This document shows positions 3,293 through 63,818 of a stretch of DNA of 64,000 bases, piece after piece. Numbering within the stretch: position 1 is the stretch's first letter; each line of letters begins with the position of its first letter. Below the pieces are notes generated by a model that ran no database searches, had not been told where the DNA came from, and saw only the letters and a list, made by a program, of their open reading frames with translations. Both the position numbers and the translations under genes were made by a program. Source of the DNA: Agelas oroides (lineage: Eukaryota; Porifera; Demospongiae; Agelasida; Agelasidae); contig OX422184.1 in assembly GCA_949130485.1 (NCBI GenBank), positions 17,298,324 through 17,362,323 of the forward strand, written 5' to 3'.

Positions 3293-3424
3293 TACTGTGG
3301 TTTTACGAAATCTTGCAAAAATTGTGTTTGAACGCGTAGTACGAAACTGCGCATGCGCCAGCGAAATTCAAAATGTGTCTATAGTCAGTGTAGCTTACGT
3401 ACTATATTTGTGGTGGTGTCCAGG

Positions 3425-4429
3425 ATGGCTACTCGTTCCTCGTGTGAGCCGATGCGGACCAGCGCTTATAGTGAAGATATAAGATGGAGGATGGTTTGGC
3501 AGCGTGAAGTTCAGGGGCTCACCTTGGAGCGAGTAGCATGTAATCTAAGTGTAGATGTTTCTACTGTGCATAGGATAGTCAAGAAGTTTGAGGAAACCGG
3601 AAGTGTAAGCAAAAAGAAGTATTCTATCGTAAATCGGCAGCAGCTCCAGAAGCTCACTAAACCTGTTCAACTAACTGTACTTCATCTCGTTTTACAACGA
3701 CCTAGTATATACCTTTGGGAGCTGCAGCAAGAGCTCTATAGCATGTTTGGACTAGAAGTTAGTGTTGCAAGCCTTTGTAATTTTTTGAAGAAGAGCAACT
3801 TCAGCAGAAAAAAGATGCAGTTGGTAGCCCTTCAAATGGATCAAGGTCTCAGAACACAGTTTGTCACTGATGTTTCACTGTACAATGCGGACACATTGAT
3901 TTTTATTGATGAGACTGGTTGTGATCGCCGGAATACAATAAGGAAGCATGGATATGGAGTCAGAGGGAAGCCTGTATGATGCCCGAAGTTACTTGTGCGA
4001 GGAGAAAGAATTTCTGTAATTGTAGCTATGACAGTGAATGGGATTTTGGATCTTCAGATTGTCAGAGGATCAGTGAATGGCGACATATTTATGGACTTCA
4101 TTCAAAGGGTATTGCTACCAAATCTAATGCCTTTCAATGGCACAAACCCCAACAGTGTTGTTCTGCTTGACAACTGTTCTGTACACCATGTGGAGGGAGT
4201 TGTAGACACAATACAGGAAATGGGAACTATAGTGCACTTCCTATCCCCTTATTCCCCAGACCTAACTCTCATTGAGTTATTGTTTTCTAAGGTCAAAGGT
4301 CTCATCCAAGCAATGGAAATGGAAATGATTTCCCTCAATGATATAGATACAATTGTATTAGCAGCATTTTCATGCATTACTAGTGACGATTGTAGAAGTT
4401 GGATTAGCAGCATTGGTATATATGATTAA
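3425..4429 (+). pseudogene. Tc1/mariner-IS630-like DDE transposase, one in-frame stop
   Basis: Residues follow the IS630/Tc1 plan. There is an N-terminal helix-turn-helix (LTLERVACNLSVDVSTVHRI) and a linker with R/K-rich segments. The catalytic block reads FIDETG (first Asp), VVLLDN (second Asp) and SPYSPDLTLIE (Glu), with 34 residues between the second Asp and Glu (DD34E). The frame is open from 3,353; the ATG at 3,425 is the likeliest start because the TIR covers sequence up to about 3,364. A TGA at 3,977-3,979 interrupts the frame just after RGKPV. Reading resumes in the same frame without any indel, so one substitution, probably CGA to TGA, inactivated this copy. Alternatively the stop could be read through. 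The gene converges on the accessory gene at 4,594-6,039. Confidence 0.85.
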
Positions 4430-6039: not shown

Positions 6040-6275
6040 AGCGCAATTTTTGCAAGATTTCGTAAAACCGCAGTATAGGCATTAGACCATGTAGGGTGCC
6101 CGTTAGTGGCCGTGCCCGTTTGTGGAAGACCCTCTACAAATGGATAATAATGGCATTTATGTCCGTATACTACTGGATATTAGTCTCACTAACCAGCATG
6201 GAGAATGCCTGGTAGTGGCGCCCGCCGTAGAAGTCTGATTCTCTAAGAAAGAGCTACAAATAGAGGTTAGCGAAT

Positions 6276-6371
6276 TAGCCTCGATCCCAGGCTTTCCATT
6301 GCGGATTTTGTCTCGCAGCTTTGGAGAAAATTCCAAAGCTGCGAGACAAAATCCGGAACGGTTTGAGGCTA
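6276..6371. mobile_element. 96-bp hairpin MITE, 9-bp duplication
   Basis: TAGCCTCG-type left end and GAGGCTA right end, flanked by exact TTAGCGAAT at 6,267-6,275 and 6,372-6,380. The body is a near-perfect hairpin around TCTCGCAGCTTTGGAGAAAA. A half copy of the same subfamily lies at 20,017-20,075. Confidence 0.9.
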
Positions 6372-6589
6372 TTAGCGAATCATGAATGCCAGTGAGTAGC
6401 TACGGCAGCTAGTACGGCACACACTGCATACGTAGCAGCGAACGAACTGACTTTGACTTGCAGAGTGCATAATTGTATGTTGAAAGCAAGAACTCCTTGC
6501 TCAAGACTCAACCTTTCATCATAAAGTATCTCCGAGGAGCTAGCAGTCATCTAAGAAGTGCTGAGTACTGATTCTGGATTTTGTCCATG

Positions 6590-8220
6590 CCAGTTTCTAA
6601 ACTATGTGAGGAATCCTTGTGAAGGAGCAGTAAGAGATGAAGATGAGTATAATGCATTTGACCTTCATGTACCGGGTATGGCAAGGTCTACCTGCACTAG
6701 TTTTCAGAACCTCTGATTTTGAAGAAGCCGGCATGCAGTGTCTGTGTTTGAGATGGGTATTAAGGTCAGAGTTCACTAACCATGAGACTCAACAGGTGTC
6801 AATTTGGTACTTGTACATCATATGATGTCAGTGGATGTTTCTTGAAGAAATACCTTAAAGTGTGTAAAAACTGTGGTACTAAATTATAACAAACTGAAGC
6901 AAAAGTATATTCAGTAGACGAAACAGGAGAAGACAAACTATGATACCAGAAATCTCATGCAGAAACAGTGACTACTGCTGAGTTTGAGATGGCTAGTAAT
7001 GCTGGTTTGACAAACCTCAGTGCATGCGTACAGTTGCAGTGTTTGAGATGAGTTTTGACCTTCCTCAAGCATGGCAAGTCCTGCCCATGCCAGTTTGTGA
7101 AACTGACAAATCTTGCCATCATTGTGGAGAAATGGTGACTACAGCTGCTTTGAACATGGGTATTGTCCTTCATCACTAATGGGCATGGCTAGTCCTGTCC
7201 ATGCCAGTTTGTGAAACTGACAAATCTTGCCATCATTGTGGAGACTACAGCTGCTTTGAACATGGGTATTGTCCTTCATCACTAATGGGCATGGCTAGTC
7301 CTGTCCATGCCAGTTTGTGAAACTGACAAACCTTGCCACCATTGTGGAGAAATAATGACTACAGCTGCTTTGAACATGGGTATTGTCCTTCATCACTAAT
7401 GGGCATGGCTAGTCCTGTCCATGCCAGTTTGTGAAACTGACAAATCTTGCCATCATTGTGGAGAAATAGTGACTACAGCTGCTTTGAACAATGATATTGT
7501 CCTTCATCACTAATGGGCATGGCTAGTCCTGTCCATGCCAGTTTGTGAAACTGACAAACCTTGCCACCACTGTGGAGAAATAGTGACTACAGCTGCTTTG
7601 AACGTGGATATTGACCTTCATCACTAATGGGCATGGCTAGTCCTGTCCATGCCAGTTTGTGAAACTGACAAACCTTGCCACCATTGTGGAGAAACAGTGA
7701 CTACAGCTGCTTTGAACAATGATATTGTCCTTCATCACTAATGGACATGGCAACTCCTGCCCATGCCAGTTTGTGAAACTGACGAATCTTGCCATCATTG
7801 TGGAGAAATGGTGACTACAGCTGCTTTGAACATGGCTATTGTCCTTCATCACTAATGGGCATGGCTAGTCCTGTCCATGCCAGTTTGTGAAACTGACAAA
7901 CCTTGCCACCATTGTGGAGAAACAGTGACTACAGCTGCTTTGAACGATGGTATTGTCCTTCATCACTAATGGACATGGCTAGTCCTGTCCATGCCAGTTT
8001 GTGAAACTGACAAACCTTGCCATCATTGTGGAGAAATGGTGACTACAGCTGCTTTGAACATGGCTATTGTCCTTCATCACTAATGGGCATGGCTAGTCCT
8101 GTCCATGCCAGTTTGTGAAACTGACAAATCTTGCCATCATTGTAGAGAAATGGTGACTACAGCTGCTTTGAACATGGGTATTGTCCTTCATCACTAATGG
8201 GCATGGCTAGTCCTGCCCAT
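6590..8220. repeat. 114-bp satellite inside the Ginger-like element
   Basis: About ten well-conserved units run from about 7,080 to 8,220. They share CAGTTTGTGAAACTGACAAA, TGCCATCATTGTGGAGAAA and GTCCTTCATCACTAATGGGC. The units are 114 bp (one of 106), preceded by diverged units back to about 6,590. ORFs of 70-73 codons on the minus strand arise only because 114 is a multiple of three; I see no protein signature. Confidence 0.85.
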
Positions 8221-8242
8221 GCCTGTGGGTGTCTCATGCCTG

Positions 8243-8403
8243 CACAGTTAAAAATGGGGTGCTACATTACACCCCTGGGGCACTACACCATACTGGTTAT
8301 TAAAACTTCCCTTTGATGTTTTTAATAACCAGTATGGTGTAGTGCCCCAGGGGTGTAATGTAGTGCCCCAGGGGTGTAATGTAGCACCCCATTTTTAACT
8401 GTG
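8243..8403. repeat. Large hairpin with an extra 21-bp unit in one arm
   Basis: Left arm 8,243-8,304 and right arm 8,319-8,403 are perfect complements (CACAGTTAAAAATGGGGTGC...). The right arm carries one extra copy of the GTGCCCCAGGGGTGTAATGTA unit. It lies just 3' of the satellite. A foldback MITE is likely; target duplications are not evident. Confidence 0.8.
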
Positions 8404-8977
8404 TGTTAGTTTTCTAGCACCGAATTATCAAGCCTGAACATGTACTTTCTTCATCAAAAGAATGTCTGCTCATGCCCAGTAAACAGCAGATACTCCAGAT
8501 GATGAGAGCATTGCCTGTTATCTTTATGGCTCAATAGGCACTAACATAATGCACCCTGTGTACATGACCATGTGGAAGGTTGCCACCATAGCTGAACATG
8601 CTAAAACTTCAGTGATTATATACGTGCAGTTCATGCATGCTTGTTAGTGCATAATGCATCTCAAGTTAACTGCAAACTGGTGACAATCATTGCTTCTTCT
8701 GATGTGAGATTACATTTAGCTAGTAGCAATACAAATTCCAATTTGGCACAGAAATCATAAGGGTTAGACATATTGGGAGACTGGAGTCACTCTTTTGATG
8801 AAAGTACCACAGCTAGTTTCCCACAAAACTATAGCTATACTTGCATGCATGCTTAACGTTACAAAGTGCAGCATAATTATACTGTTATTCATTGCAGAGA
8901 CTATTGGTATTCATAGGATGGGAAATGTATGTGTGTCATAAGATCTTTGAGCTGTATCCCAAGGTATCAAGAATGCT
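8404..8977. other. 3' flank of the Ginger-like gene
   Basis: No open frame or repeat of note. It lies downstream of the TGA at 8,978-8,980 of the minus-strand gene and probably holds its 3' UTR. Confidence 0.4.
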
Positions 8978-10200
8978 TCACTGAGTATAGCCACCATTGC
9001 CTGTGTTAGAGAAACATACAGCTATAGTACACATTTCCTGCATTTCATTTGTTGCAACAACAGCATTTACTTCTGGCCACAGCACTTGTCGGGTAAGCCA
9101 TGATGAGGAGTAGCTTTTCTGTTGGAAAGCAATCTCACGAAGATAGTATAAAACTTCAGTAATCTGTGCAAGAACACAAATAGTTACACACTGTGGATGC
9201 AATGCACTACATCAAGAAACTTACAATAATCGAGTCTTGTAGTGGCCATGTGACAGTCGGAATTGTCCTTTCCTTCGGTGATCTGGCATCCAGCAGGTGT
9301 TTTCCGTATGGGCTTGACATAGGTTTGTCAGCCACTCTTTCAAGATGTCTCTGCCAATGTTAATGGTTCATGTATGTATACTGAACTGTATATTAATGCA
9401 TGTTAGTACTTGATGTTCATACCTCAGCCTTTTTTAGAGCAGTATGAATCACTTTTCTTGGGATGTTGCCATCTCTATTAGGAGAAAAAAATTTAAGTCC
9501 AGTTTTGTGGAAGCCTATGGTATAATGTTAACCTCAATGGGGGGCCAAGTGCTGTTGTCAACAATGTCTGTGCTGCATGTATGTAGTTTTTCTTTCTTGT
9601 TGCAAAGGTAAAGATTGGTTCATCACACACCAGACTTTCTGGCTTGTCTAGAGAGTCTGGAATAATCAGCTCAATGTTGTCTTTCTGCTGGTCTACATAT
9701 ATTGGAAAGTAAACATAACTCCAGGCAATGCAACGTTAGCAGAAATTTATGCATTTTCCAGCTAAACTGTGCATTTGCCAGCTACACTGTGCATTTTCCA
9801 GCTAAACTGTGCATTTGCTAGCTAAACTGCGCATTTGCCAGCTACACTGTGCATTTGCCAGCTACACTGTGCATTTGCCAGCTACACTGTGCATTTGCTA
9901 GCTACACTTGCATTTGCTAGCTAAACTGCGCATTTGCTAGCTACACTGTGCATTTGCTAGCTAAACTGCGCATTTGCTAGCTAAACTGCGCATTTGCTAG
10001 CTAAACTGTGCAATAATCAGTGAGATAAAGGTACCTTTCATAGTGATGTCAGTGACATCTTCATCCATGCTACTTGAATCTTCATCACTGTCTATGTCAC
10101 TATGTGCTGAGAGTATAAGGACAGCAGGTACATAATATTGGTGCTTGCAAATGGCCACTGTACAAGTCTTACATTTTGTGTGCTCTTCTCTTGTGGACCC
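8978..10200 (-). other. C-terminal block of the polyprotein, unrecognised
   Basis: It begins with a 28-bp exon and an acidic exon (SDIDSDEDSSSMDEDVTDI). Four further exons follow: FTFATRKKNYIHAAQTLL, GNIPRKVIHTALKKAE, HLERVADKPMSSPYGKHLL, and ITEVLYYLREIAFQQKS with a final GNGGYTQ. Coding character and splice phases are good; I recognise no family. The last 62 codons, encoded by 9,163-8,978, end at a TGA. Confidence 0.65.
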
Positions 10201-13200
10201 CTATATTGCGGTGAGATGTTAGAGGATGAAGTGATCATTACAGGTGTTTTTACGCATTCAATTCTGTGTATTCACCTGGAAATTGATACACAGCTTCTTT
10301 CTCAACTGCTCCTTGACTGCACTGTATCCTTCCTTGGTTTCAACTGCATCTATCATACTTGAGCTGCAAAGTATAATACAGCTGTATGTCATATAATCAT
10401 GTAGTCGAGCACATTAAGGCAAACATATCCTGCTGCAATCACCATACCTCATCATTATCTCACATAGCAGCCACTTCCTTATTACTGTTGGTGTTGTCTG
10501 TATGAGATAATAAGGTCAACTAAGTGTGAATTTCAAACATACAGTTCTGAGTTCAATATTCAGTTACTTCCAGAGTACTTCTCATACCTCAAAATTGATC
10601 TTCTGACTCCTCACCAAGCAGGCTGCAAACTGTTTGCATGTAACTAGATTACTAATACAGCACCTTGTTCACACAGCTAGTTGCAAACTAACCTTGCACA
10701 CAAAGACTCCACAATCAGATGAATTTTCCTGTTGTGGAATATTCTGTAATATAAAGGAAAATCATGCCGTGTAAGACCAAAAGTATTTGTAGTCAAAACA
10801 GATTTTACACTTACAGTTTTGTTTAGCATTCTCCATTTACAGACCGGTTGACTGTACCCACTTTTCTGGCAGAACAGTGTGAGGATTTCCCTGCAAGGAC
10901 CATTTAGTGTGAATTGGCTATCTTTTATTATACAGAAATATCACAGATGTACCCTATATTCATCATGATTGCAGTGTACTGTGGTTGCGGACATTGCCTT
11001 TCAACTTCACCCTGTTCTCCCACTAATGAGTCATATGAAACTACTTTTCGCTGCACAAAGTCAAACACCTACATGGTGTAATCAGCATTGCATATTTGTA
11101 AACACTCACACATGTAGTGTACAATGAGCAGACGTACCACTATGATCCAATGCACTCCTAGGTTCACTGGAACTACAATCTTTCGGATGCTCTTAATATC
11201 CTCCTAAGCACAGAGATAATTGTAAGTCAAATTCTAAATTAAATTTGAATACACTCCTACCTTTAAGTAGCTGAACAATCTTTGTTCAGAATACTCCTTG
11301 GCACCTCGTTTCCACCGCATCACAGCTTCATAGAAGAAGGATGAGACACACAGAACCTTGGTTGCAAAGGCCTGCTTAACCAGCGACAGCTGTAATGGTT
11401 GTATAGGCAGATCTTGTTTGTGACACAAAAATAACGTAGGTTATCTAACCTGTGAAATCTTCTGGTTTTGCTCCTCATTAAGATTATGCATAAAGAAATT
11501 TATCACCTATGATCATTAAGAACAGATTGCTACAGTTAGTATGGCACAAATACCACAACAGTTAATACATTATTAACCTTGTCATTGATCCATAGCACAT
11601 TGGCTATTTTTCGGATGTCTCCCACAGTTAGTAAGTCACCAGTCAGTGCAAGAACTTCCATTGCAGGAGGTATGGCTGTAGAGTTTGGGGTTAGGAATTG
11701 CAATGGTTATGGTTGTAGGGAGTAGTAGTTCGTAGAAGCCACATGCAGTACCTTTGAGGTCAGGGAATCCTCTGTCACCAACTGCAGTGCTGATGGAGTA
11801 TGAAACCATCATCGATTATAATAATTTGCACTGTGCCCATAATCACCTTATTAGGTTTGAGCACTGTTCACCAGTTCTGCCAACACGGTTTTGCACTTTA
11901 AGTGGTGTTATCAACACAGTAGCAGTGCACCTTCCAGGTAGACAGGTAGACACCTTTGAGTAATTACCTGAGGGATGCAACAAGTCGGTTTGAGATGACT
12001 TAGGAACAGTTGCATGACACATGTATACAGTAGATGTAAATACATTGCATTAACCTACAGCACACCTGCATGGTCTTCTACTTCTGTAGCAAGGGTGGTA
12101 GCAGCCACTTTAGAATGATCGGAATGTCCAACAGGATATTTAACTTTAAGAGGAGTGACTGACACAACAGCAGTGCGCTTCCCAGGAAGACGAACTCGAA
12201 TTCCAGCCACAGGCTTCTTGACTGTAGTATCTGTAGATGCAGAACAAAATTACCCCTTCGCTTGTTGACTACTTATTGTGGAAACTGAAAAAATGTTGCA
12301 GACCTGTATGTTTTGCTGCACTTGCAGCTATAGTAGTTGCAGAGTTGTTAGACCAAAGAGCACATTCTACATCAGGAGGTGGTAGTTTGACAGGAGTTAC
12401 CAATACACTAGCAGTGCATGTCCTAGAAGTAGATTGAGCTCCCTCTACATGCTTTCTGGGAAGGGCTGCAAGACCAAATTATCAATCATGACTAGTGACT
12501 TAATAAAAGTTCTAAGCAGTTTTACCTGGATTTTCAGTACTGTCAGCAGATGGCCTGACAAGCACAAATGTATAGCATGATTTGTCTATCATTATATCCT
12601 GTACCATTCTCATTGTCAGTTTTCTGGGCTTTCTTTGCTTGGAATCAAGATGCCACATGTTGGAAGTAGATTCAATACGGATGGAAGTGTAGTGCAGATG
12701 TTCTTGCCAATAAACAATTAGTGTGCAAGGAAAGGAAGTCTTGCCTAAGGCAGCAGATACAAACTTCCCAGGAGAAGAAAAGTCAGATGGGACCAAGGGC
12801 TCTTGTACTAGTTCATTGAGATTAAGAAGTTGGTCACCGAAGCATTCAACTACTTCTCTTAGGACTTCAAAGGAGTAAAACCCATTCACATCTCTTTGAA
12901 TTTGTAGCTCATCAGCGAGATCTAAGGAAAACTGCTCTATCTGCCGAAGCCAAAGATCATCAGCAATGTTGTCAAGCTGATCCACAGTTAGTTTTTCATT
13001 ACTGTATGCATTGTTGATGGCACAAAGTCCACAGTAGTTCGATTGTCCTTGGGATTGCTTCCATGGTTTGTGATGAGAGATGTGTACCTGACTTTGAATG
13101 ATAGAATCTGCATGAACACCAACAACTTGAGCCATGTACCTCACATTGCAATACAGATTTTGCTTGGACTGAATAGTGAGCTGTTTCCACGATGTCAGGT

Positions 13201-16200
13201 ATGGGGTGATTTGGAGTTGCAAACTTGATATTCTCTCCTTGAACAGCGATCCTTTAGCAGATAGAATAGGAAGGAACACTCTGATGTCATTCTGTTTTGG
13301 AGGTTGAGTTAAATCCTTTAACTTTCCTTTTGTGGATGACTGTTTTCCTTTTAGAATCCTTTTTTTGGAAGCCTTCTTTCGTTTTGCTGGAGGCAATCTA
13401 TTTTCCAATGGTGGAATGGCTCTCTTGCTTTCTTTTTCTTTGTGGGGTGTGTTTTTGAAGTCATCAGTGACTACCATATCAGGATTGTCTTGAAAATAGT
13501 TGCATTTGCTACCAACTTGTTGAAACCACTCTTTGCAGCATGGGTGGAAGCAGGGTTGCATCCGACGGGCACACTGGAAACATTCATGTGTAGCTTCAAT
13601 GAAACAAGGCAGGGAATGCTGAGAAAAAGGGAGATGAAGAAGTACTGGTGACTGGGATCGGGATGTTTCCCATAGGCATAAACCAGCAAAGTAGAAACGA
13701 TATTCTGCCTCTTTCAAGAAATTCATGATGGACACAAAAAGTCTGTTAAGCTGAGCTAATAGTTCAGTATCCTCTGCCACAGTTGCAAGAAAGCTGCAGT
13801 CACATGCATAACAGAACAGGTCAACTTGTATATTTAAATCATTTGCTTTTTCTGTCAGACCTAGTTCATCTAGGAAGGAATATTCTGCAGAGTTTTCCTT
13901 GACAAGTTGACGAATGAAGTCATGTATACTTTCCCACATCTTTACAGCATGTGACAACACTTTCTCTGTAACATTTTGCAAAGTCAGGGATTGAACTGGT
14001 GATAAATCATCAGTACATTGTTCATTTTCTGTTAGAGGTCGGCCCAGAACCATCGTTGAAGCGTACAGTGTAGCTGTACATTCTGTTCCTTCAAGTGTGT
14101 TATATGAAACACGATAGTAATTGCAAGGCAGTACTTCTGTTACTCTGCCTTGTATATTGGGCACTACAACCATGCCATACTTTTCAGGGTGATGAAACCA
14201 TACTTCATCTCCACACTTAAAGTCTTGGTTCTTGATCTTCTTGGCATGCAGCAAATAGTTCTCATAATACTTCTTTTCAGTACCTTCAATTGCTGTCAAT
14301 TCAATAATTCTTCGTTCTGTATGCAGTTCTAACAAACTTCTCTGGATTTCTCCAATGTTCTCTGACTGAATTAGGTGGCAGTTTACTGTCTTCTGAAGTG
14401 CTTCTTTCCCCATGTCACCATCAGTTTCACTATCAGTTTCACTATCACTATTGCCAGAGCCCCAGAAATCAGTGGGGTATGTGCTCTTCTCAAATTTTTC
14501 TGTTCTAGACTCACATTTGTTACGTGAGTCCTTCATAAAAGCCATAAATTCATCTGAAGGCCATACTGCAACATCACCTCTGTCTGCAATGCTGCAATGG
14601 CGGGATGACCTTCCAAAGAAAACTTCAAAAGGAGTAGCACAAAGTGCACTGTGCCAGCTGTTGTTCAAAATGAAGGGAATCTCTGGCAAAATAAATGGCC
14701 AAACTGTAGATTGTTCCTCTGGGGAAAAATCAAGCAAACGATAGCGAAGAATTCTTCGGATCTTCTTGTTTAATCGCTCAACTTGCCCTGACTTTGGGGA
14801 TGAAATGGCCTTCCATGAAATATTCTGATCTTTAGGGATGAACATAACTCTTCAAGAACATGGCTTACAAATTCACCACCATTATCAGATTGCAGTTTTT
14901 CTGGGCAGCCATACTGGGTGAATATACTTAGCAGGGCCTTTGATACCATTGCTGAGGTCTTGGACGCAAGTGGAACAAGCCAACAATATTTTGAAAAGCA
15001 ATCCATAACTGACAAGATCAGTCGGAAGCTGTGTGCTGATTGTTCAACAAATGGACTCTGTGAGCCATACATCTCCAGTAAATCAATCTGAATGTGTTCC
15101 ATGACTCGAAAGCTGCGGATCAGCTTAGGTGGTGGTTTACGTGTTTTTAGAGCTGCCATTCTTTTACAAGTACCATCACAATTCGCTTTGACATCCTGAA
15201 CAATTTTTCTCACACCTTTACAATCATATTGCTGGGAGAAACACTTTACAATTGCATTTATCCCATCTTTCCTACATGCTCTGCCTTGTGGACGGTGAAT
15301 GTTATTAATAATCTCCCGAGCTCTGTTGGCATGTACAACTTCCCTCCTCCCTTCACTGGTAAGCCAATATAAGGTTCCACTCCCTTCATCATAGCAAAAG
15401 TTAGGTTTGCTTTTGCAGCTACCAGAGTACATATAGCTCGTATTTTGCTTTATAAAATCATCTACCTCAGGAATCTTGTCTGGATTGCCCCGAATTGCTG
15501 CCACCAATACATCATACCTCTCTTCAGAGAGTGGGCCTCTGTTGGCAGTGGAACGTTTCTTGCGGCAAGATTCTGCACAAATTACAACATTGTTGTACAT
15601 TGTATTTACATGCATTGTACCTAGTGTTGTCAAAGTTCTCAGGAGTATTCCCAGGTCTTTTGGTAACCCCACTTCAGAAATAATGCTGGGGAGTAGCACT
15701 GCAAGTGGTGATGGCCTGGGAACAAGTCCAAGCCATTGAGCTTGCAGCAGTCAACAGACATGAGCTCGGTTGCCCTATGGCTACACAAACACCATTCTGT
15801 ATGGTAGTACTACCCTCATTCCCATGTTCCTCCCAGACATAGATACAGATGGGAAGTGAGGCTATGACAGTACTGTAACTAACAATGGCACATCCTTGTT
15901 GAGTACGTAATTACAAATTACCAGTAGTAGGATTTCAACCACAGTAAAAGAATGACATTAGCAGCCACTAACCATCCTGTCCACGAACTGGCAGAGCAGC
16001 CATCAGGCACCTTGCTCTTTCCCTATATAATATACATATGAAGAGTAACCATGCAGTGCAAGTGGTTTGGACGACAAACTATGATTACAATGCCAAGAAT
16101 TACTAGGGAGTTAAACGATGTGGGTTATCGCTACCTGCTTGCAAAGTCACTTCTGCAGGTAGTTCTGAGAACCGTGGATCCCCGGGCCCAGTACCGTCAA

Positions 16201-16294
16201 TGTCCTCGAGAAGGCAGACTAGACTAGACCGACGTTGGTTAGCAATACCAATCAGAAAGACTAATGGAAAAATGGAAACAAGCTTTCCATTCAT
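8978..16294 (-). CDS. Ginger-like transposase polyprotein: integrase, Josephin-like protease, Ulp1 (C48) protease; 22 exons, one frameshift
   Basis: I assembled it by hand from GT-AG junctions. Exons in order (high to low): 16,294-16,135; 15,740-12,526; 12,465-12,304; 12,230-12,066; 11,967-11,847; 11,789-11,752; 11,675-11,578; 11,506-11,450; 11,389-11,261; 11,203-11,138; 11,068-10,953; 10,890-10,815; 10,743-10,693; 10,629-10,588; 10,497-10,448; 10,363-10,276; 10,200-10,173; 10,106-10,035; 9,692-9,533; 9,474-9,423; 9,350-9,225; 9,163-8,978. All phases agree. The sum is 5,258 nt, one short of 1,753 codons; the missing base is a single deletion near 14,783, just before the catalytic Glu of the integrase. 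The protein should cut and join DNA in the nucleus; its proteases may remove ubiquitin or SUMO-like modifiers or process the polyprotein. An alternative 3' end would use the TGA at 10,258-10,260 by not splicing at 10,276. The first exon and its hydrophobic start (MNGKLVSIFPLVFLIG) are the least certain. Confidence 0.82.
9751..10012. repeat. 20-bp tandem repeat in an intron of the Ginger-like gene
   Basis: About 13 units of GCATTTGCCAGCTACACTGT with CCAGCTA/CTAGCTA variants. They fill most of the intron between exons 10,106-10,035 and 9,692-9,533, outside both splice sites. Confidence 0.9.
10276..11675 (-). other. Ulp1/SENP-type (C48) protease domain over ten exons
   Basis: The order of motifs is complete. 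VGDIRKIANVLWINDKVINF and FMHNL come first (substrate-binding start), then SSFFYEAV, KIVVPVNLGVHWIIVV (catalytic His), VVSYDSLV (catalytic Asp), IPQQENSSDCGVFVCK (oxyanion Gln and nucleophile Cys), FAACLVRSQKINFE and VIRKWLLCEIMM. These are the canonical H-D-Q-C residues of SUMO/NEDD8 deconjugases. Each motif sits on its own short exon with matched phases, which is the strongest evidence that the gene model is right. Confidence 0.92.
11752..12465 (-). other. Linker with three homologous exons
   Basis: Exons 12,465-12,304, 12,230-12,066 and 11,967-11,847 each contain a variant of one module: RTCTASVLVTPVKLP, LPGKRTAVVSVTPLKVKYPVG and LPGRCTATVLITPLKVQNRVG. All three start in phase 1; the first two also end in phase 1 and the third in phase 2. 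The module thus looks duplicated together with its introns. I know no domain of this form. A short exon (11,789-11,752) joins it to the Ulp1 block. Confidence 0.75.
12526..13075 (-). other. Josephin-like cysteine protease domain
   Basis: QSNYCGLCAINNAY gives a Gln and a nucleophile Cys. It is followed by TVDQLDNIADDL, GFYSFEVLREVVECFG, a His in LHYTSIRI and an Asp in MWHLDSKQ, and it ends with YTFVLVRP. Order, spacing and flanking hydrophobics fit the ataxin-3/Josephin fold (Cys-His-Asn/Asp, ubiquitin-specific). It is encoded in the same exon as the integrase. Alternatives are another papain-fold family such as OTU, but the GFYS and HLHYTSIR motifs favour Josephin. Confidence 0.62.
13900..14769 (-). 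other. Integrase C-terminal region with SH3-like segment and Cys-rich stretch
   Basis: After the core come an acidic patch (GSGNSDSETDSETDGD), then DEVWFHHPEKYGMVVVPNIQ and TEVLPCNYYRVSYNTLEG. The last two read like the SH3/chromo-like C-terminal domain of Ty3-type integrases. Further on (about 13,800-13,480) lie clustered cysteines (CYACDC, CFQCARRMQPCFHPCCKEW) that could bind zinc. A basic run KRKKASKKRILKGK near 13,380 is a likely nuclear signal. Confidence 0.6.
14770..15740 (-). other. H2C2-DDE integrase region of the polyprotein
   Basis: An upstream zinc-binding-like segment has the His residues of VVHANRAREIINNIHR and Cys of KCFSQQYDCKG and NCDGTCKRM. It is followed by the integrase core: IQIDLLEMYG (first Asp), QSDNGGEF (second Asp), HGRPFHPQSQG, then VERLNKKIRR in another frame (Glu). 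The Asp-Glu spacing would be 35 residues, as in retroviral and Ty3/gypsy integrases, if one base is restored at about 14,783. The deletion falls in the codon between QG and VE. It can be told from a real frame end because both frames stay coding on their own sides of it. Confidence 0.9.
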
Positions 16295-16614
16295 GTGTGG
16301 TTAACAGTTCGCAATTACTGTCCGCTGGCTGGCCGGCTGGCGATATGCAGACATGCGCGTGCAAATAGCAAATGCGCATGCGTACGTACCCTGATCTTAA
16401 TTATCCGGGTACACTCATTCACAAACGGGCACGGCCACTAACCGGCACCCTACAGACCAGACCCGGACCCTCGCGCTGCGCGCTCGGGTCTGGCTTCGCC
16501 AGACTAAGCTTTGACTCTACTCCGCACTAGCCTCGTTCCCAGGCCCTGCGCGTTCGTCGCTTGCAGTACGAAATTCGCGCAGAGGGCGTGATGCGTGCCG
16601 CAGGCGTCATTTTA

Positions 16615-16910
16615 CAAGGGGTAGTCACTTATATGTCGCCTGTAGAAGCGTTTGCGACCGCGATCAAAGTTTTTGATCGGCAAAAAGTGTGCTTGATCGC
16701 TTGATCGTCCCCTTCAGAGGCTCTTGATCGCTTGATTTTCAAGGGTCAAAGGTCGGATTGCAGCAGCGCGTTCTTGATTGTTGATTTTTAGCAGTTCGGA
16801 GGCCACCTTGATCCCTTGATTGGCCCCCAAAAAGAGCTTTGATCGCTTGATTCAGTTTTGATCCCGGTCGCAAACGCTTCTACACGGGACATATAAGTGA
16901 CTACCCCTTG
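16615..16910. mobile_element. Nested MITE with CAAGGGGTAGTC ends
   Basis: The inverted ends CAAGGGGTAGTCACTTATAT... extend about 45 bp. The flanks are TTTTA at 16,610-16,614 and 16,911-16,915, consistent with a 5-bp duplication. The interior repeats TTGATCGCTTGAT words. A related end (GGGAGTGACCACCCCTTG) occurs at about 20,306. Confidence 0.75.
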
Positions 16911-17708
16911 TTTTACGTTACACCAGATATAGCAAAATCGCCGTGTTGCACTGGAGATGACCACAAATGGAGTTGGAAGAACCTGGAACAGGTCACGCGC
17001 GTACGATAGACTACAATAGTCAACTCGAGCTGAAGAAGACGAGGAGCCGAAATCCAGGTTCGACCTAGTAACACGATGTGGCCAAGGTATCTGAATATAG
17101 ACGTCTACTATCCAGCTAAGCATGGCAGCTTGTGCTGTTGCGCTGCCGAGACTTTTAACACTTAGGTAAGTTCGCACGCGAACCATTACTGTGATCTCGG
17201 GGCCTCTTTCAAAACAAGGCGCTAGCTCATCTATGACATCATTGATTCTAGTAGAAGCTCAGACTTGCTCATGAGAAAAAAATTACGGGTTTACCCCAAA
17301 TTTAGATTTTAACCCTCTCTTTACGAAATTTAACTTCACCGAATTTCTGCATACAAGCATGCATTCAGAGAGAATACAGCACGTCAAGGGAAACGAGAAC
17401 AAGTAAGCATGGAATCAGTATAGTATTAAAACTAGTCAGTATTGAATATCAGAGAAGGGATGCATTTCTGGCAGCTGTGTAGGGGAAAACAGACTATTAG
17501 AGCAGCCTCACAGCCTATTAATCAAGGTGATCAGTATGGAGGCCTAAATTTTGCGTACTCTGTGCATTTATTTCTATCTATGACTGATCAACACTCATGT
17601 GTTTGGTGCATAATTAGCAAACCTGCTGTGCACTGCTGCAGTCCGCATTTGTGCACTACGTTGCTGTACCGTGACACTGCAATCTAACTATGCACCAAAG
17701 GTAAAACA

Positions 17709-17890
17709 TTGTCTATGATGTGTGTTGAAATCAGGTCTAAAAATGAAGCTATTTTATGTCTGTTGAAATTGTCTACGATGTGTGTTGAAATCAGGTCTAA
17801 AAATGAAGCTATTTTATGCCTGTTGAAATTGTCTACGATGTGTGTTGAAATCAGGTCTAAAAATGAAGCTATTTTATGCCTGTTCAATGC
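17709..17890. repeat. 60-bp tandem triplication
   Basis: Three nearly identical 60-bp units (GTGTGTTGAAATCAGGTCTA...) differ at one or two bases. Because 60 is a multiple of three and stop-free in several frames, it makes repeat ORFs on both strands; I do not treat these as genes. Confidence 0.9.
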
Positions 17891-18816
17891 GTTCATGTTC
17901 CTACGCTAGAGGCAAAAATTTATTCTCGGACTGATATATTTTCGGACCTCAGACTTCAAAGTTCTTAGCATGGTAGCAACTGTGCCAGATCATCAGAGCA
18001 ATAAGACATGCTGGGGCTGGGATAGTTTTCAATACCCGAAACTATTGTAGTACGCGGGGATAGAAAATCACGTCTGAAAATACAGTGCATAACTTCTTTG
18101 CCGCCTCCTCTGAAAAAGAAAGACTAAAATACTTGCCCTTCCATTGGCCTTGCCTATGAGCCCATACCAGTTGCCAAATTTGGCTGGCAATGCGATATAA
18201 TATATGATTATCAGACTTGTCCGCTAGTAGAATCCTAGGACAGGTGCTTGAACAGATGTAGTATTTCTTTTGCTAAATCCCGGGTAGAAGACTGTTTGGA
18301 GTTGAATTTCAAGTATGTTGATTATCAAACATTAGCCCACCTATCCTACAATTCTTATGTCTGGTAGACATCTGCGCGAGCAACAAGAGTGCAACGTTTC
18401 TTAAGTGTCCGAGCATCAATTAGTTCCTCTATCTGTAAATTTGACGAAGTCCTTTATATTTGTGTAATCCATGCATGTGACAAATTTCTAGCAGCAGAAT
18501 TAGCAGAAATTATGAAATTGTGCATGCTTTAGAGCTTCAAATTGAGCCATCACTATGCATGCACATATTCAAATTAGCATACCTTCTGCAATGTCTTAAT
18601 ATGCTTAAAATCCTTACCTAGTTTGATTGCAACCGTTAATGCTGTGTTCATATCAACCAAGATTCTCATTTCTATACTGTCGCACTTGCATACAAAACCA
18701 GTCTCATACTGCAAGCTCAGGGTATGAGGAGCCTGAGAAGGAGACTATGATACACTTCCCCAATTTATTTCCAGTGTAAAGACTACATGTACAAATGTAC
18801 AAATGTACAAGCTGTG

Positions 18817-23833: not shown

Positions 23834-24331
23834 TTTTGTAACTTGATTGGCAAACCCATCATTTTAAAAAGGGAACGGAAAGGGTGGAGGCCGTACAGGA
23901 CCACGAGTGGATGGCCTGAGAAGACTGGTAGGAAGTCAATAAATGGGGTTGCTAAAGGACCAAATAAAAACATGCAGGGGCAAGGCGGAAGGAAGGCACA
24001 GGGGAGTCCAAAAAACGGGGGAGCGCAAGAGAAGACATCAGTGGTAAAGTCACAGATTCAAGATGCACAGGTGGAGACTCCAAAAAACGGACAAGCAAAA
24101 ACAAGTGCGCAAAAGCCAGTGGAGAGGCAGCCAGGAGTACAAGCAACAGAAGTGAGAGGTCAAGCAGTGGAGTCACCTGGAATCGAAGGAGGGGTTCCCA
24201 GTTATGGACGGGGGCAAGTTTACTGCAATCCAGCTCAGCAGATGATGTTACAGCAAGTCCTCTGGAACTGCATATTGATGATGGCTCAGAGGGAACCACT
24301 CCCCCTACTGAGCCAGCAAGAATCCCTGTAA
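23834..24331 (+). CDS. ORF1 of the non-LTR retrotransposon
   Basis: The frame opens at 23,834 after a TAA and ends with TAA at 24,329-24,331. The first ATG in frame is 23,972 (M in NKNMQGQGG), which would give 119 residues. The product is basic, Gln/Gly/Lys-rich and low in hydrophobics (KNGGAQEKTSVVKSQ, KTSAQKPVERQPGVQ), as expected for a nucleic-acid-binding ORF1 protein. No zinc knuckle is visible. ORF2 overlaps it in the -1 frame from 23,965. Two A AAA AAC heptamers in this frame offer a route to a fusion. Only the length of the frame and its neighbour support coding. Confidence 0.6.
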   Translation, partial: FCNLIGKPIILKRERKGWRPYRTTSGWPEKTGRKSINGVAKGPNKNMQGQGGRKAQGSPKNGGAQEKTSVVKSQIQDAQVETPKNGQAKTSAQKPVERQPGVQATEVRGQAVESPGIEGGVPSYGRGQVYCNPAQQMMLQQVLWNCILMMAQREPLPLLSQQESL

Positions 24332-27300
24332 GTCATGGGAGGGGGGGAGGGGAGGGTCGCGCCGGGGGAAGGGGAAAGGGGGGGGAAGAGCTAGAGGTAG
24401 GTGTAATTCGGTTGGGATTCCTGAATTGTAGAGGGTGGTGGTCAAGAGAAGTTGATGTCAACTTGGTGTTGCAGCAGCTAGATCTTGACATATTTGGCTT
24501 GGCAGAAACATTTCTACGGAAGGGAGAGGAGCCTCAGGTGGGTGGATATAAGTGGTATGGAAACAACAGGAAGGCATGTAAGAGGGCAAGTGGAGGTGTG
24601 GGGTTATTAGTTCGTGATGGTTTGCAAGCTAGAACCTTAAAGGATGAGACTGAAGGGGTTCTTTGGGTAGAAGTAAAACTGGAAGATGAGGGGAAGGTAG
24701 CTGTTGGAGTGGTCTATGCAAATCCTGAGGGTGTGAGGAGTGAAGAAACTGAAGTACAATTTGAAAAGGTAGGAGCTGATTTGCTGGAATGGCGTAGATT
24801 GGGGTACAAAGTGGTGGTAATGGGGGACTTCAATGCACATATTGGCAGAGGAGAGGAGGAAGTCGCAAACCAGAATGGACGGAGGTTACTAAATTTAGCA
24901 TATGTAGGAAATATGGTGATTGGTAACGAGCTGCCTGTATGTAAGGGAAGGTGGACTTGGGAATGTGGAGACAAGAAATCGGTGATTGACTATATGTTAT
25001 TCCCACAAGAGCATAGGCATGAGTTGGTGGAAATGATAGTAGAAGACAGGGGGGTTATCGATACAGGGTCAGATCACAATGTTGTTTGGGGTGTGTTTAA
25101 GGTGGGAAACCCTAAGGAGATGAGGAGAGAAGAAAGGTTCAAGTGGAGGGTTGATGGGAGAAGCAGCTGGGATGAGTTTCAGGAAGCAATTGAGGAGGAA
25201 TTTCAAGGATGGGAGGCCTGGGTGAGAGATGTGGAAATCAGGGAAGTAGGAGAAGAACTAGTTGAGAGAGTATGGGGAGAATGGAAAACAAAGGTGATGT
25301 CAGCAGCGGAAAGAGGGATTGGTAAGAAAAGGATTTCAGAGCTGTCTAAGGGTTGGTGGTCGAAGGAAGTGGAGGAAGCAATCCAAACAAGAAGGGAAGC
25401 TTGCAAACGGCTAAGACAGGCTAGGAGGAGAGGAGAGGCAGTTAATGAATGCTGGAAAACATACAGAGAGAAGAGGAGACAGGTGAAGAAGGTGATTAGA
25501 AAGGAGAAAAAGAAAAATAGGAAGAACAAGTTGCAGAAAATCAAAGAACAAGGAGGGCCAAGTTGCAAGTTATTCTGGTCAGACTTGCGAGGGAAAAAGA
25601 AAAACCGGAGGATCACAAGGATGAGAGGGAAGGACGGAGCAGTAGTTGAAGAAACAGAACAGATTCTGGAGGTGTTGGCTAAACATTGGGAGGAGCTAGG
25701 GAAGAGTCGTAATAGTTTGGATCCAGAGCAGGAACCAGAGCTAATTCATGAAAGTTCAGACCTGTGCCAAGAGATAGGATGGGAGGAAGTGGTCAGGGTT
25801 TTGAAGACGCTGAAGAGGGGGAAGGCGCCAGGCCCAGATGGAATTCTAAATGAGATGTTAATTTATGGAGGGAGCAGGATGGTGGAAAGTATGAGGTGCA
25901 TGTTCAATGTAACGAGGAGAAGCCAAGTATACCCACAGGATTGGAAGAGTAGTTTTGTCATACCCCTGTTTAAGGATGGCGATCCAGAGAGTGCGAGCAA
26001 CTACAGAGGCATTGCACTGGGAAGCTGTGTTGCCAAAGTTTGGGCAAAGATTTTGACAGTTCGGCTGGGAGAGTATGCAGAAGAAAATATATTGACAGAT
26101 GCCCAGGGAGGTTTCAGGGCAAAACGGAGGTGTGCAGACCAGATTATGATCTTGAGGGGTGCATGTGAGTTGAGGAAGAGAAAGAAGAAAAGTACCTGGC
26201 TGGGTTTTATGGATGTAAGTAAAGCATATGATACAGTGTGGAGGGAAGGGCTGTGGAGGAAAATGCGGGAATACGGTGTGGAAGAATCATTTGTTAGTTT
26301 GTGTGAGGGGCTGTATGAAGGGGTGCAAGCTAGTGTTCAAGTAGATGGGCAACAGTCAAGGTGGTTTAGAGTAGACGAGGGACTCCGGCAAGGCTGCCCC
26401 CTGTCACCACTCTTGTATAGTGTCTATATTATGGGAATGGTGGAAGAGTTGGAGAGAGAAAACTTAGGGGTGAAAGTGTCTGGGGTATGGTGTGGAGCAT
26501 TACTATATGCTGATGACATTGTGCTGATAGCAGAGTCAGGTGAGGAGTTGCAAAAGATGCTGGATATGGTAGGAAGATATGCAGAAATGTGGAAGTTCAG
26601 GTTCAATGCAAGGAAGAGTAAGGTGATGGTGGTAGGTAGAAAGAACAGTGGCGAGAAGTGGAAAATTGGTGATGAAGAGATGGAAGAAGTAGAGTCCTTC
26701 AAATACCTGGGTGTATGGTTTGACCAGAGGATGAGGGGAAATGTGCAGCTGGAGAAGATGGTGGAACAGGCTGAGGAATGGGCAGGCAAAGTTGAATGGA
26801 TGGCAAGGGTGGATGGGGAACTAGAGGCAGAGCGAGGTCGATTGATATGGGACCTAGTAGCAAGGCCTGGCCTGGAACATGCAGCAGAGGTGTGGTGGCC
26901 AGGGGGGAAGACAGTAGGAAAGAGGTTGGAGGCTGTACAGGATAGGTTGGGAAGAAAACTGTTGGGAGCTAGTAGAACAGTGGCAGGGGAGGCAATCCGT
27001 GGGGAAATGGGATGGAGAAAGTTAGAAGAAAGAAGAGAGGAGAAGAAGATGTTGTATGGGCGGAGATTCTGGGAGCTAGGCGAAGAGAGGTTGGTGAAGC
27101 TGATAGTAGAAAAATTGAAAGAGTCAGGTGGAGTAGGCTGGAGGGAAGAATATGAGATGTTGCTAAGAAAGTATGGCTTGGAGGAAGCCGAAGAGGAAGA
27201 GTCAGGGTCAGCAGCAGCCTGGAAGAGGAAAATAGAAAAACAAAACTGGGAAGACTGGCAAGAAGAGGTGGACAGGAAAAGTAGCTTGAAATGGTATAAG

Positions 27301-27735
27301 AAGGTTAAAGAAGAGTATGGGCCGGAGAAATACGTAGGTTCATGGGAGGGACATGTGGCAGTACGGTTGAAGTTCCGGTTGAGGTCAGGGTCTGCAGGGT
27401 TGTTTGAAGATAAAAAGAGATGCGGGATGGTGGAAGAGGACAGATGTGTGCTGTGTAATGGAGGGAAGGTGGAAGATGTTAAGCATTTTGTATTGGAGTG
27501 TGAGGAGTTTGACCAGGATAGATGTCGGCTTCTGGAAAGGATCAAGGGAATTGTGGGAGCAGAGGAGTGGGTGAAGGGATATGAAGAAGGTGATGATGAT
27601 AGTAGAGTGAGTTTACTGCTAGGGAGAAGGGTAGATGTGAATAGGGAGGTGATGGATGACATAGACAGGTGCATAATGAAAGAGATGGTGACGTGGTGGC
27701 AGAGGCGTAAGGTGTTGTTAGGTTGGGTTAACTAG
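23965..27735 (+). CDS. ORF2: endonuclease-reverse transcriptase of a non-LTR retrotransposon
   Basis: The frame is open from 23,965 (just after TAA) to the TAG at 27,733. There is no in-frame ATG until far inside the endonuclease domain, so translation probably comes from ORF1 by a -1 shift or from a non-ATG codon. From about 24,412: an APE-type endonuclease (FLNCRGWW, LDIFGLAET, VVMGDFNAH, GSDHNVVWG). Then a reverse transcriptase with GKAPGPDGILNE, FMDVSKAYDTVW (motif A), EGLRQGCPLSPLLY (B), YADDIVLIA (C) and FKYLGVWFD. The C-terminus has a C-x2-C...H-x4-C knuckle (CVLCNGGKVEDVKHFVLEC). No RNase H is seen. The order fits the CR1/L2/Jockey group of non-LTR elements; the clade is not certain. 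The frame is undamaged, so the copy may be recent. The coding strand is strikingly purine-rich. Confidence 0.92.
24010..24016 (+). promoter_or_regulatory. Candidate -1 frameshift heptamer A AAA AAC (first)
   Basis: In the ORF1 frame the codons are CCA AAA AAC GGG, so the heptamer is exactly in X XXY YYZ register. A -1 slip here enters the ORF2 frame, which is open from 23,965. I could not fold the downstream G-rich sequence to look for a stimulator. Confidence 0.5.
24082..24088 (+). promoter_or_regulatory. Candidate -1 frameshift heptamer A AAA AAC (second)
   Basis: The same heptamer in the same register 72 bp later (CCA AAA AAC GGA). The two sites share surrounding bases, so one may be a copy of the other within a small internal repeat. 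Confidence 0.45.
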
Positions 27736-61775: not shown

Positions 61776-63818
61776 ATGGCTTTGGTCTCTGCTGCCGTTT
61801 TGTTGCTGTTCTTAGTGTCATGTAGTGCACGGGACTTCACCTTCACGTTTAAGCTTGGAGCGGGGAAGTCGGAATGCTTCTATGATTACATCCATGAGGG
61901 TGCTTTCTTGGAAGTGGAGTTCCAGGTGAGCTGCGGTGGTGGGGGGACATAGTCGCGTAGACTGGTTGCTATAGGCCTCGCACTGAGACCGAGCCTAAAT
62001 AGCCTCGTTCCCAAGTCTCCGAGAAAGGGTCCGGTACACACTACATGTGTAGACTCCCCCATTTTTTTTTTTGTGGGGCATGAAATATGGGATCAGTTGG
62101 AACATGTGACACTGGAAATCCTGTTCACCTTGCCCAGCCCTAACCCTTACCCTACCTGTGTGCTAATTAATTCAAATTTCCGGTGCTGTGTATTCCAAGT
62201 GGTCCGAAATATGCTCCATTACGCTATTAATGATGCAGTTTTTCAATTCATTTTTCATCAATTGCTTCAAACAAGACAGACTCCTGCCATCAAAGTGAAA
62301 CCTCCTGAGTATGTTACACATGAGGAATGTCTTTTACGATGTAAACACTGTTTAGCTCCTGGATTGGTAGTGAATGCAGACGCTCCAATTTTCTGTGAAG
62401 AACAGCATCCACTATCCATCAAGTATTTATACACCGGAAGAGAGCAAGTTGTATTTACTGATCACTGTTAGCTGTTGCAAAACAACACAAAAGTCACGAA
62501 TATAAAGATTTTCTTTCATACTAATTCTAATTGAAAACAAATTATGGCTACTGGAGCAAACAACTCATGATCTTATTTTGCAAAGAGTAGCCATTGGTGC
62601 ATCGTTTGATGTGTTCTAGTCACCTGTACAAGCCAGTCCTGAGAACATCTTCTAGAATCACTACCTACGGTCTCTCTTATGCTACTGCATTAGCAAATTT
62701 ATTAGATGACATGGCCTTGCCTGACCTCCCCCATTCCCCCAGGCTTGTAGCACCTGCATGCTCAGTTGATTTCCTACTTCTTAAGCTGTGAGTAGGTGCA
62801 AACTAACATGCACATGATAATTGTGGTCAGAGGCATATCGAATGTAACTCGGTAAATGGCAAATTATATAACTCAGGTTTCAAGTTTTGTGGAGTGCGCT
62901 GGTGCATTTCATTGTAAATCAGTAAATTTCTTATCTAAACTCACTGCTAGTGCTAAACACTGCCAGGTGCACTCTAGATCGACCGCTATAGCTCTTACGC
63001 GCAAATCATTTGAGTGTTTCCTTGGGAATCCCACGGAAAATTCTGCGTACCATAAAATGCCATAGAGGTCGATCTAGAGCTCACCTAGCAGTATCCACTG
63101 AGTGAGTTTCGTCCCAAACAAACGAAAGCTGTTTGTGTAAATCGAGTTGACCTTTCACTATGGGCCTCTATGGCAGTCAGTATGATTATATGTTATTCGC
63201 ATAGCACTAATTACTATCTCGTGCGTATCACTAATTACTAGCTTCCAACCTCCTCTGCCTCTGAGCAATGCCCGAGGCATGTAGGATGAACAGGGCTATT
63301 ACTGCCAGCTATCTATACTTGGATGACGTGCTAATTGTTGGCGAAAAGAGACATTGAGATCCAGCCAGGATTCAAATCTGGGTGTTCTGAATTCCGGTCA
63401 GATGCTCTTACCAACTGAGCCACTGGAGCTCTGGCATTGGAGCAGATGGTAGATTTACTCATGGACACAGCTTGACTCTTAGGCTTTATCTCTCTTAGGC
63501 TTGGTATATTAACTCTGCATGATAAGTACCAAAGTACCTTTTGCTACCACCAGCAAACTGGGTAATAGTAGCAGCCACTTTGTTGCTATGAAATCATCTC
63601 TGGTCCTGCATCTGACATTTATCTCATCCATTTTATGGTTTTTCTTCTCTTGCAGGTGATCGATGGTGGTGATCTTGACATCAACTTCTTTGTGAATGGT
63701 CCAAATCAAGCCTCTCTGGTGATGGATCCTTCCAGTACCGATGGCCTGCATGCCATTGACATTAAGACAACAGGGGAGCATGAAATCTGCCTGGACAACT
63801 CATACAGCAGATTCACAG
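61776..63818 (+). CDS. p24/TMED family cargo receptor, 5' part (two exons)
   Basis: Exon 1 (61,776-61,925) encodes a signal peptide MALVSAAVLLLFLVSCSA and the GOLD-domain start (FTFTFKLGAGKSECFYDYIH). Exon 2 (63,656-63,818; acceptor TTTCTTCTCTTGCAG) continues in phase with VIDGGDLDINFFVNGPNQAS and HEICLDNSYSRFT. The two cysteines (ECFYDY, ICLDNS) form the conserved disulfide of p24 proteins. The remaining coiled coil, transmembrane segment and tail lie beyond the window. The protein should cycle between ER and Golgi in COPI/COPII vesicles. The style is nearest TMED1/5 (p24 gamma), which is a tentative subfamily call. The ATG at 61,776 is chosen because it starts the signal peptide; the frame is open 36 codons further upstream. 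Confidence 0.9.
62073..62471 (+). other. Unrecognised 132-codon ORF in TMED intron 1
   Basis: The C-terminal 80 codons look coding-like (HYAINDAVFQFIFHQLLQTR; HEECLLRCKHCLAPG). The N-terminal part overlaps a dispersed repeat shared with 21,845-21,950. No acceptor or donor context was convincing. Probably a transposon or retrocopy fragment. Confidence 0.25.
62935..63100. repeat. Inverted repeat in TMED intron
   Basis: CTAGATCGACC at about 62,976 and GGTCGATCTAG at about 63,066 form the core of a foldback; GCCAGGTG / CACCTAGC extends it with mismatches. No gene. Confidence 0.5.
63358..63429 (-). other. tRNA-like sequence, probable head of a tRNA-derived SINE
   Basis: The minus strand shows GCTCCAG (acceptor), TGGCTCAGTTGG (A box), a UCUGA/UCAGA anticodon stem, TTTGAATCC (B box, degraded) and CTGGATC (acceptor, one mismatch). 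The loop CCGGAAT lacks U33, so it is unlikely to be a working tRNA. Downstream on the same strand (to about 63,190) a body ends in repeated AATTAGTG words, as in a SINE tail. Confidence 0.6.

Follow-up and report, generated by a model that had tools for sequence, protein, structure and literature searches.

A Ginger-like transposon of the sponge Agelas oroides whose transposase probably combines an integrase with Josephin and SENP1-type protease domains

Ginger1 transposons, according to the cited passages of Bao, Kapitonov and Jurka (2010, PMC2836005), measure about 2.6-7 kb, have 0-4 introns in the published table, and are bounded by terminal inverted repeats (TIRs) of about 40-270 bp and a 4-bp target site duplication (TSD) of CCGG or CCGT; in their proteins either OTU or Ulp1 is found, 'but not both'. 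The same passages give Ginger2/TDD elements an integrase without GPY/F, TGTNR termini and a TSD of 4-5 bp; Ginger2 elements other than TDD have 4-bp TSDs and TIRs of about 50-180 bp, and the cited section on that group mentions no protease domain (PMC2836005). Here we report on a stretch of 64,000 nucleotides from the demosponge Agelas oroides (GenBank assembly GCA_949130485.1, contig OX422184.1, positions 17,298,324 to 17,362,323 of the forward strand; the window), which contains a complete 10,365-bp transposon at 6090..16454 with its gene on the minus strand. We place at roughly 0.8 the probability that this is a cut-and-paste transposon related to the Ginger group, with a gene whose product is most probably a single transposase of ~1,700 residues, made up of an integrase, a Josephin domain, a SENP1-type protease and a C-terminal tail.

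The interval 6090-16454 is a DNA transposon with TIRs and a TSD. Its ends agree at 34 of the first 35 positions, beyond which the match decays, giving a TIR of ~35 bp; the 5' TIR (16420..16454, minus strand) and the 3' TIR with which it pairs (6090..6124, plus strand) both start with TGTAG, and perfect 5-bp copies of GACCA, read on the plus strand, flank the element at 6085..6089 and 16455..16459. When nine other loci of the searched genome (259 Mb in 141 contigs) were aligned to the window, the unit common to them, here called family 1, spanned ~16454 to ~6090; the 5'-terminal 300 bases, used as a query, gave 18 matches, eight of which were full-length over 300 bases, the window included. Both ends were located in four of the ten copies (the window, C5a, C11b and C3a). 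The TSD is 6 bp in C5a and 5 bp with one mismatch in C11b; the C3a insertion sits within a TG repeat, where a length of either 4 or 6 fits. The first-pass annotation had set the left end at 8978, which proved to be only the stop codon of the gene; the shared boundary, the TIR and the TSD move that end to 6090. A narrower search for a TIR pair, between 7000-9000 and 15700-18500, came up empty, its best result being a 20-bp, 17/20 match to the tandem array inside the element; the true left end lies farther out.

These boundaries bear on the possibility that the locus is a gene of the host, either one that was domesticated or a SENP gene into which an integrase transposon inserted. In its numerous small introns the Ulp1 part does look like a host gene, and SENP1 is the closest solved relative of that part; against this, the region lies entirely between the TIRs and the TSD copies, nine further loci carry the unit, and a divergent family, described below, has the same architecture. 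We consider such an origin extremely improbable, and at the window locus the TIR, the TSD and the other copies rule it out.

The element resembles Ginger1 in its Gypsy/retrovirus-like integrase, its TIRs, its TGTNR termini (TGTAG at both ends) and the position of Ulp1 on the C-terminal side, as in some Ginger1 families; it is unlike Ginger1 in its length of 10.4 kb, its ~20 introns, its 5-6 bp TSD, the presence of Josephin plus Ulp1 and, less clearly, its ~35-bp TIR. The TSDs of the window, C5a and C11b are not the 4-bp CCGG or CCGT of Ginger1, and for this reason the element is not filed as Ginger1. With Ginger2/TDD it shares an integrase transposase and TGTNR termini, and the 5-bp TSD of the window fits TDD, a likeness drawn from the published description. 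The earlier label of Ginger-like transposon is supported in that this is a TIR transposon; its duplication departs from the one typical of Ginger1. As far as the evidence goes, the element appears related to the Ginger group, and 'Ginger-like' marks the limit of that evidence.

The integrase, Josephin and Ulp1 sequences lie in one mobile unit. A probable first coding exon (15973..16003, minus strand, like all exons below), which starts with ATG, reads MAALPVRGQD- and is unchanged in eight of the nine other copies, splices in frame to the integrase exon at 15572. This large exon (12526..15572) holds the integrase, a Cys-rich region and the Josephin domain, and is covered by two open reading frames, ORF1 (15750-14770) and ORF2 (14851-12512), whose frames differ inside the integrase, upstream of the third catalytic residue; relatives P0003 and P0005 are uninterrupted at this frameshift site of the window copy. 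There follow three linker exons (12465-12304, 12230-12066 and 11967-11847), each with a TA.V.(V/I)TP(V/L)K motif, ten exons of the Ulp1/SENP1 type (11789-11752, 11675-11578, 11506-11450, 11389-11261, 11203-11138, 11068-10953, 10890-10815, 10743-10693, 10629-10588 and 10497-10448), and six C-terminal exons encoding an uncharacterised tail (10363-10276, 10200-10035, 9692-9533, 9474-9423, 9350-9225 and 9163-8978, the last including the stop). From the ORF2 start (14851) to the stop (8978), the model runs through 20 exons and 19 introns and comprises 4,275 nt, or 1,425 codons, with a final stop only. All 19 introns (12525 to 9164) are GT-AG and phase-compatible, in agreement with what the first-pass annotation had said of its junctions; of the single 22-exon gene that it proposed, the Josephin-Ulp1-tail portion does lie in one splice-compatible frame, but the integrase is frameshifted here and the coding exons, the first ATG exon included, number 21. 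We infer that one transcript joins integrase, Josephin, Ulp1 and tail. A retroelement was also considered and ruled out: apart from frames of 326 and 779 codons, nowhere does the element stay free of stops for more than 115 codons, which leaves no room for an open reverse transcriptase of the normal size.

Profile searches for rve, Josephin and Peptidase_C48, which had been proposed as a check on the assembled protein, all returned matches. The rve integrase core was matched in ORF1 at 14797..15099 (minus strand; 4.2e-13), and the integrase of the second family gave 1.8e-13. Among the best 60 of 113 matches, the best solved ones to the integrase were to foamy-virus integrase, with Ty3 also present; the predicted protein is a Gypsy-like integrase transposase with a DDE core. 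No GPY/F or YPYY motif was recognised by eye in the integrase-bearing sequences, no profile having been used for either. With ORF2 as a query, a protein database yielded three matches, one of them the window's own, and a search of viral contigs for relatives gave four pattern matches, none confirmed, in a set from which records of this same genome may be excluded. Within ORF2, a Cys-rich stretch of the form C..C....C.H.CC..W at 13085-14149 is kept by eye in families 1 and 2; this part of ORF2 had no Pfam match up to E 1.

The Josephin domain spans 12590..13042 (minus strand) by Pfam PF02099 (6.9e-6; 26.4 bits against a cut-off of 26), and its predicted structural model matches ataxin-3 and Josephin-2. 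The profile scored 44.6 bits (1.8e-11) in C13, a copy of family 2, and fell below the cut-off in two sequences that are cut short, the family 2 copy C1d (18.5 bits) and a third family (23.0 bits). Cys and His are invariant across the three aligned families, and Gln and Asp are kept in families 1 and 2; these Cys, His, Asn/Asp and Gln positions are the ones we take to be catalytic. Over the genome the profile found seven matches, five of them in these elements and two at C23:5886434-5889338, which are perhaps one intron-split host gene.

The Ulp1/SENP1-type protease region (10448..11789, minus strand) gave a match once spliced by hand (Peptidase_C48, 9.4e-26, 91.4 bits against a cut-off of 20.7; human SENP1, 1.8e-22), and the corresponding region of family 2 scored 82.7 bits with Peptidase_C48. 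His, Asp, Gln and Cys line up with human SENP1 in columns that we presume to be catalytic, which bears out the earlier statement that all four Ulp1 catalytic positions are present. No OTU match was obtained in the stretches scanned with profiles (window ORFs, the spliced domain and family 2). The linker exons (11847-12465) contain a repeated TA.V.VTPLK-like motif, which by eye occurs once in the third family (L027, 2840-3073); the motif may resemble CDK sites or SUMO-interacting motifs. The C-terminal tail (8978..10363) is partly conserved in family 2 (tblastn, 1.5e-15).

The Josephin region and the Ulp1 exons occur together in six of the nine other family 1 copies (C3a, C1a, C5a, C11b, C3b and C3c). 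In C2b Josephin is lost and the Ulp1 exons are kept from 11506 onward, C11a has lost the end of Josephin and the Ulp1 exons, and C5b has lost both. Identity to the window is about 89-99% in long aligned pieces; C3c differs by ~11% and most copies by a few per cent. The splice dinucleotides were kept at 38 of 38 positions in five of the nine copies and at 26/27, 27/32 and 3/3 in three others, the remaining one offering none to score. The first-pass annotation had named the absence of any other copy with both parts as grounds for abandoning its reading; the six copies, and the second family too, carry Josephin and Ulp1 together.

That second family has the integrase-Josephin-Ulp1 order in common with the window. 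In copy C1d (L054) the frame stays open for 1,026 codons, through the integrase and into Josephin, where it breaks; copy C13 (L053) is missing the integrase core and has 843 open codons, including the whole of Josephin, followed by the Ulp1 exon chain, 12 exons in frame with no stop. Among the nine Ulp1 exons that could be compared with those of the window, the start phase was equal in all and the length identical in five. Identity between families 1 and 2 is 52.9% over 208 residues for Ulp1 and 30.7% over 176 for Josephin, and for both domains the nonsynonymous divergence (dN) lies below a nearly saturated synonymous divergence (dS). The linkers differ: that of family 1 consists of three exons with the VTPLK-like motif, that of family 2 of two short exons which lack the motif. 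The 3' end of family 2 reads ...ACACTACA in both copies; its 5' end was not found within the stretches read. A genome search with ORF2 gave 57 matches, which outside family 1 fall at 11 places; at nine of these a Ulp1 match (in a search listing E up to 1) lies within 2 kb on the same strand. Of the nine Ulp1-paired places, seven have an ORF2 match that extends into the Josephin region; at the other two, C2:7019 kb and C1:15409 kb, the match is confined to the integrase end and the sequence that follows.

Several observations weigh against a single transposase. The integrase of the window copy carries the frameshift described above, the joined gene is a splice model and not a transcript, and the 589-aa relative P0003 lacks a Josephin match in its protein sequence; the structural model of Josephin is itself of low confidence (mean pLDDT, the predicted local distance difference test score, 55.1), and outside family 1 the Ulp1 match is weak at two of the nine paired places (E 0.0036 and 0.008). 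Over the 4,185 nt that were scanned, from codon 31 of ORF2 through to the stop, none of the nine other family 1 copies is intact, each having a frameshift, stop or gap. Between C3a and the window, the integrase-Josephin part differs at 4/659, 7/658 and 11/658 first, second and third codon positions, and a selection test among family 1 copies revealed no codon-position constraint; given this and the divergence of a few per cent, the copies look recent and decaying. Finally, among the family 2 copies read, none is open from integrase to Ulp1.

This last point, together with the dependence of the joined transcript on the splice model, leaves some room for two genes in one transposon, namely one for integrase and Josephin, terminated by the TAG at 12512-12514, and downstream of it an independent SENP-like gene of many exons; the unspliced integrase-Josephin frame does stop 25 residues beyond the Pfam Josephin match. 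In both families, though, a phase-1 GT donor lies past Josephin and is followed by linker exons starting in phase 1. By eye, moreover, the unspliced tails of the two families look unrelated, and the linker and Ulp1 exons of family 2 have no in-frame ATG before the catalytic His. We therefore consider two genes unlikely, and prefer the single transposase.

Less likely again is that Josephin and Ulp1 are passively captured host sequence without a role in transposition. The missing copy-level constraint within family 1 would fit such a capture, as would the whole or partial loss of Josephin/Ulp1 from three of the nine copies, but the divergent families have preserved catalytic positions, exon structure and protein sequence, with dN below dS, and a Ulp1 match stands beside the transposase match at nine of the 11 other places. 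We suggest, tentatively and at odds clearly below even, that a long-lived Ginger-like lineage has kept, by selection, one transposase that both deubiquitinates and deSUMOylates.

The domain families suggest how such a transposase might work. Its N-terminal retrovirus-like DDE integrase would recognise and bind the TGTAG-ended TIRs, excise the element and insert it with the 5-6 bp target duplication. Both proteases would be active, acting in trans on ubiquitin and SUMO: the Josephin-type deubiquitinase would remove ubiquitin, stabilising the transposase or its repair partners against degradation, and the SENP1-type protease would strip SUMO off chromatin or silencing factors and in this way relax SUMO-dependent silencing where transposition takes place. 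Bao and colleagues raise the alternative that DNA repair factors may be activated by proteases of this kind (cited passages of PMC2836005), a reading as tenable as the roles in degradation and silencing. If the proposal is true, the enzyme that cuts and inserts DNA would strip both marks at its target, avert its own degradation and undo SUMO-dependent silencing; because the two domains lend themselves to separate expression and assay, it becomes possible to test what transposases need enzymes of this kind for.

The arrangement departs from the published Ginger1 pattern of one protease or the other and places Josephin in an integrase-type transposon; ~20 introns in a transposase gene are likewise unusual against the 0-4 of the Ginger1 table. 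Mutator-like elements use a different transposase. Some of them carry a Ulp1 protease domain (cited in PMC2836005), and the cited passages on them do not mention Josephin. Helitrons with VTD and OTU combine two cysteine deubiquitinase classes in one transposon, in 121 Helitrons according to the cited part of PMC9741609. They differ in being rolling-circle Rep-helicase elements and in that both enzymes are deubiquitinases, versus one Josephin and one SUMO-protease type here. The first-pass annotation knew of no transposase polyprotein with two different deconjugating proteases; for two deubiquitinase classes in one transposon, these Helitrons are a precedent. Together with them, the element suggests that transposons repeatedly recruit deconjugating proteases, of more than one class at once.

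Several repeats lie within or beside the element. An array of 114-bp tandem units (7069..8223) is matched in all nine other copies; the unit holds a TIR-like stretch whose match was reached by none of 300 shuffles, and the array of family 2 (L053) gave a weaker result (9/300). It is possible that the array serves for transposase binding. Next to it, at 8243-8403, is a near-perfect palindrome with 45-bp perfect arms; the nine-copy alignments are interrupted there, and several copies have ~157 bp of different sequence in its place. A 20-bp minisatellite occupies 9750..10012, in an intron of the gene, and a short stretch beside the transposon, at 16614-16911, has 55-bp inverted arms that are 95% complementary. 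Elsewhere in the window, two adjacent ORFs at 3332-4429 resemble, by eye, a Tc1/mariner-type transposase split by a stop; an open frame of 1,255 codons in a strongly G-skewed stretch at 23968-27735 resembles, also by eye, the endonuclease and reverse transcriptase of a long interspersed nuclear element (LINE); and a tRNA-Ser (GGA) lies at 63356-63429 on the minus strand.
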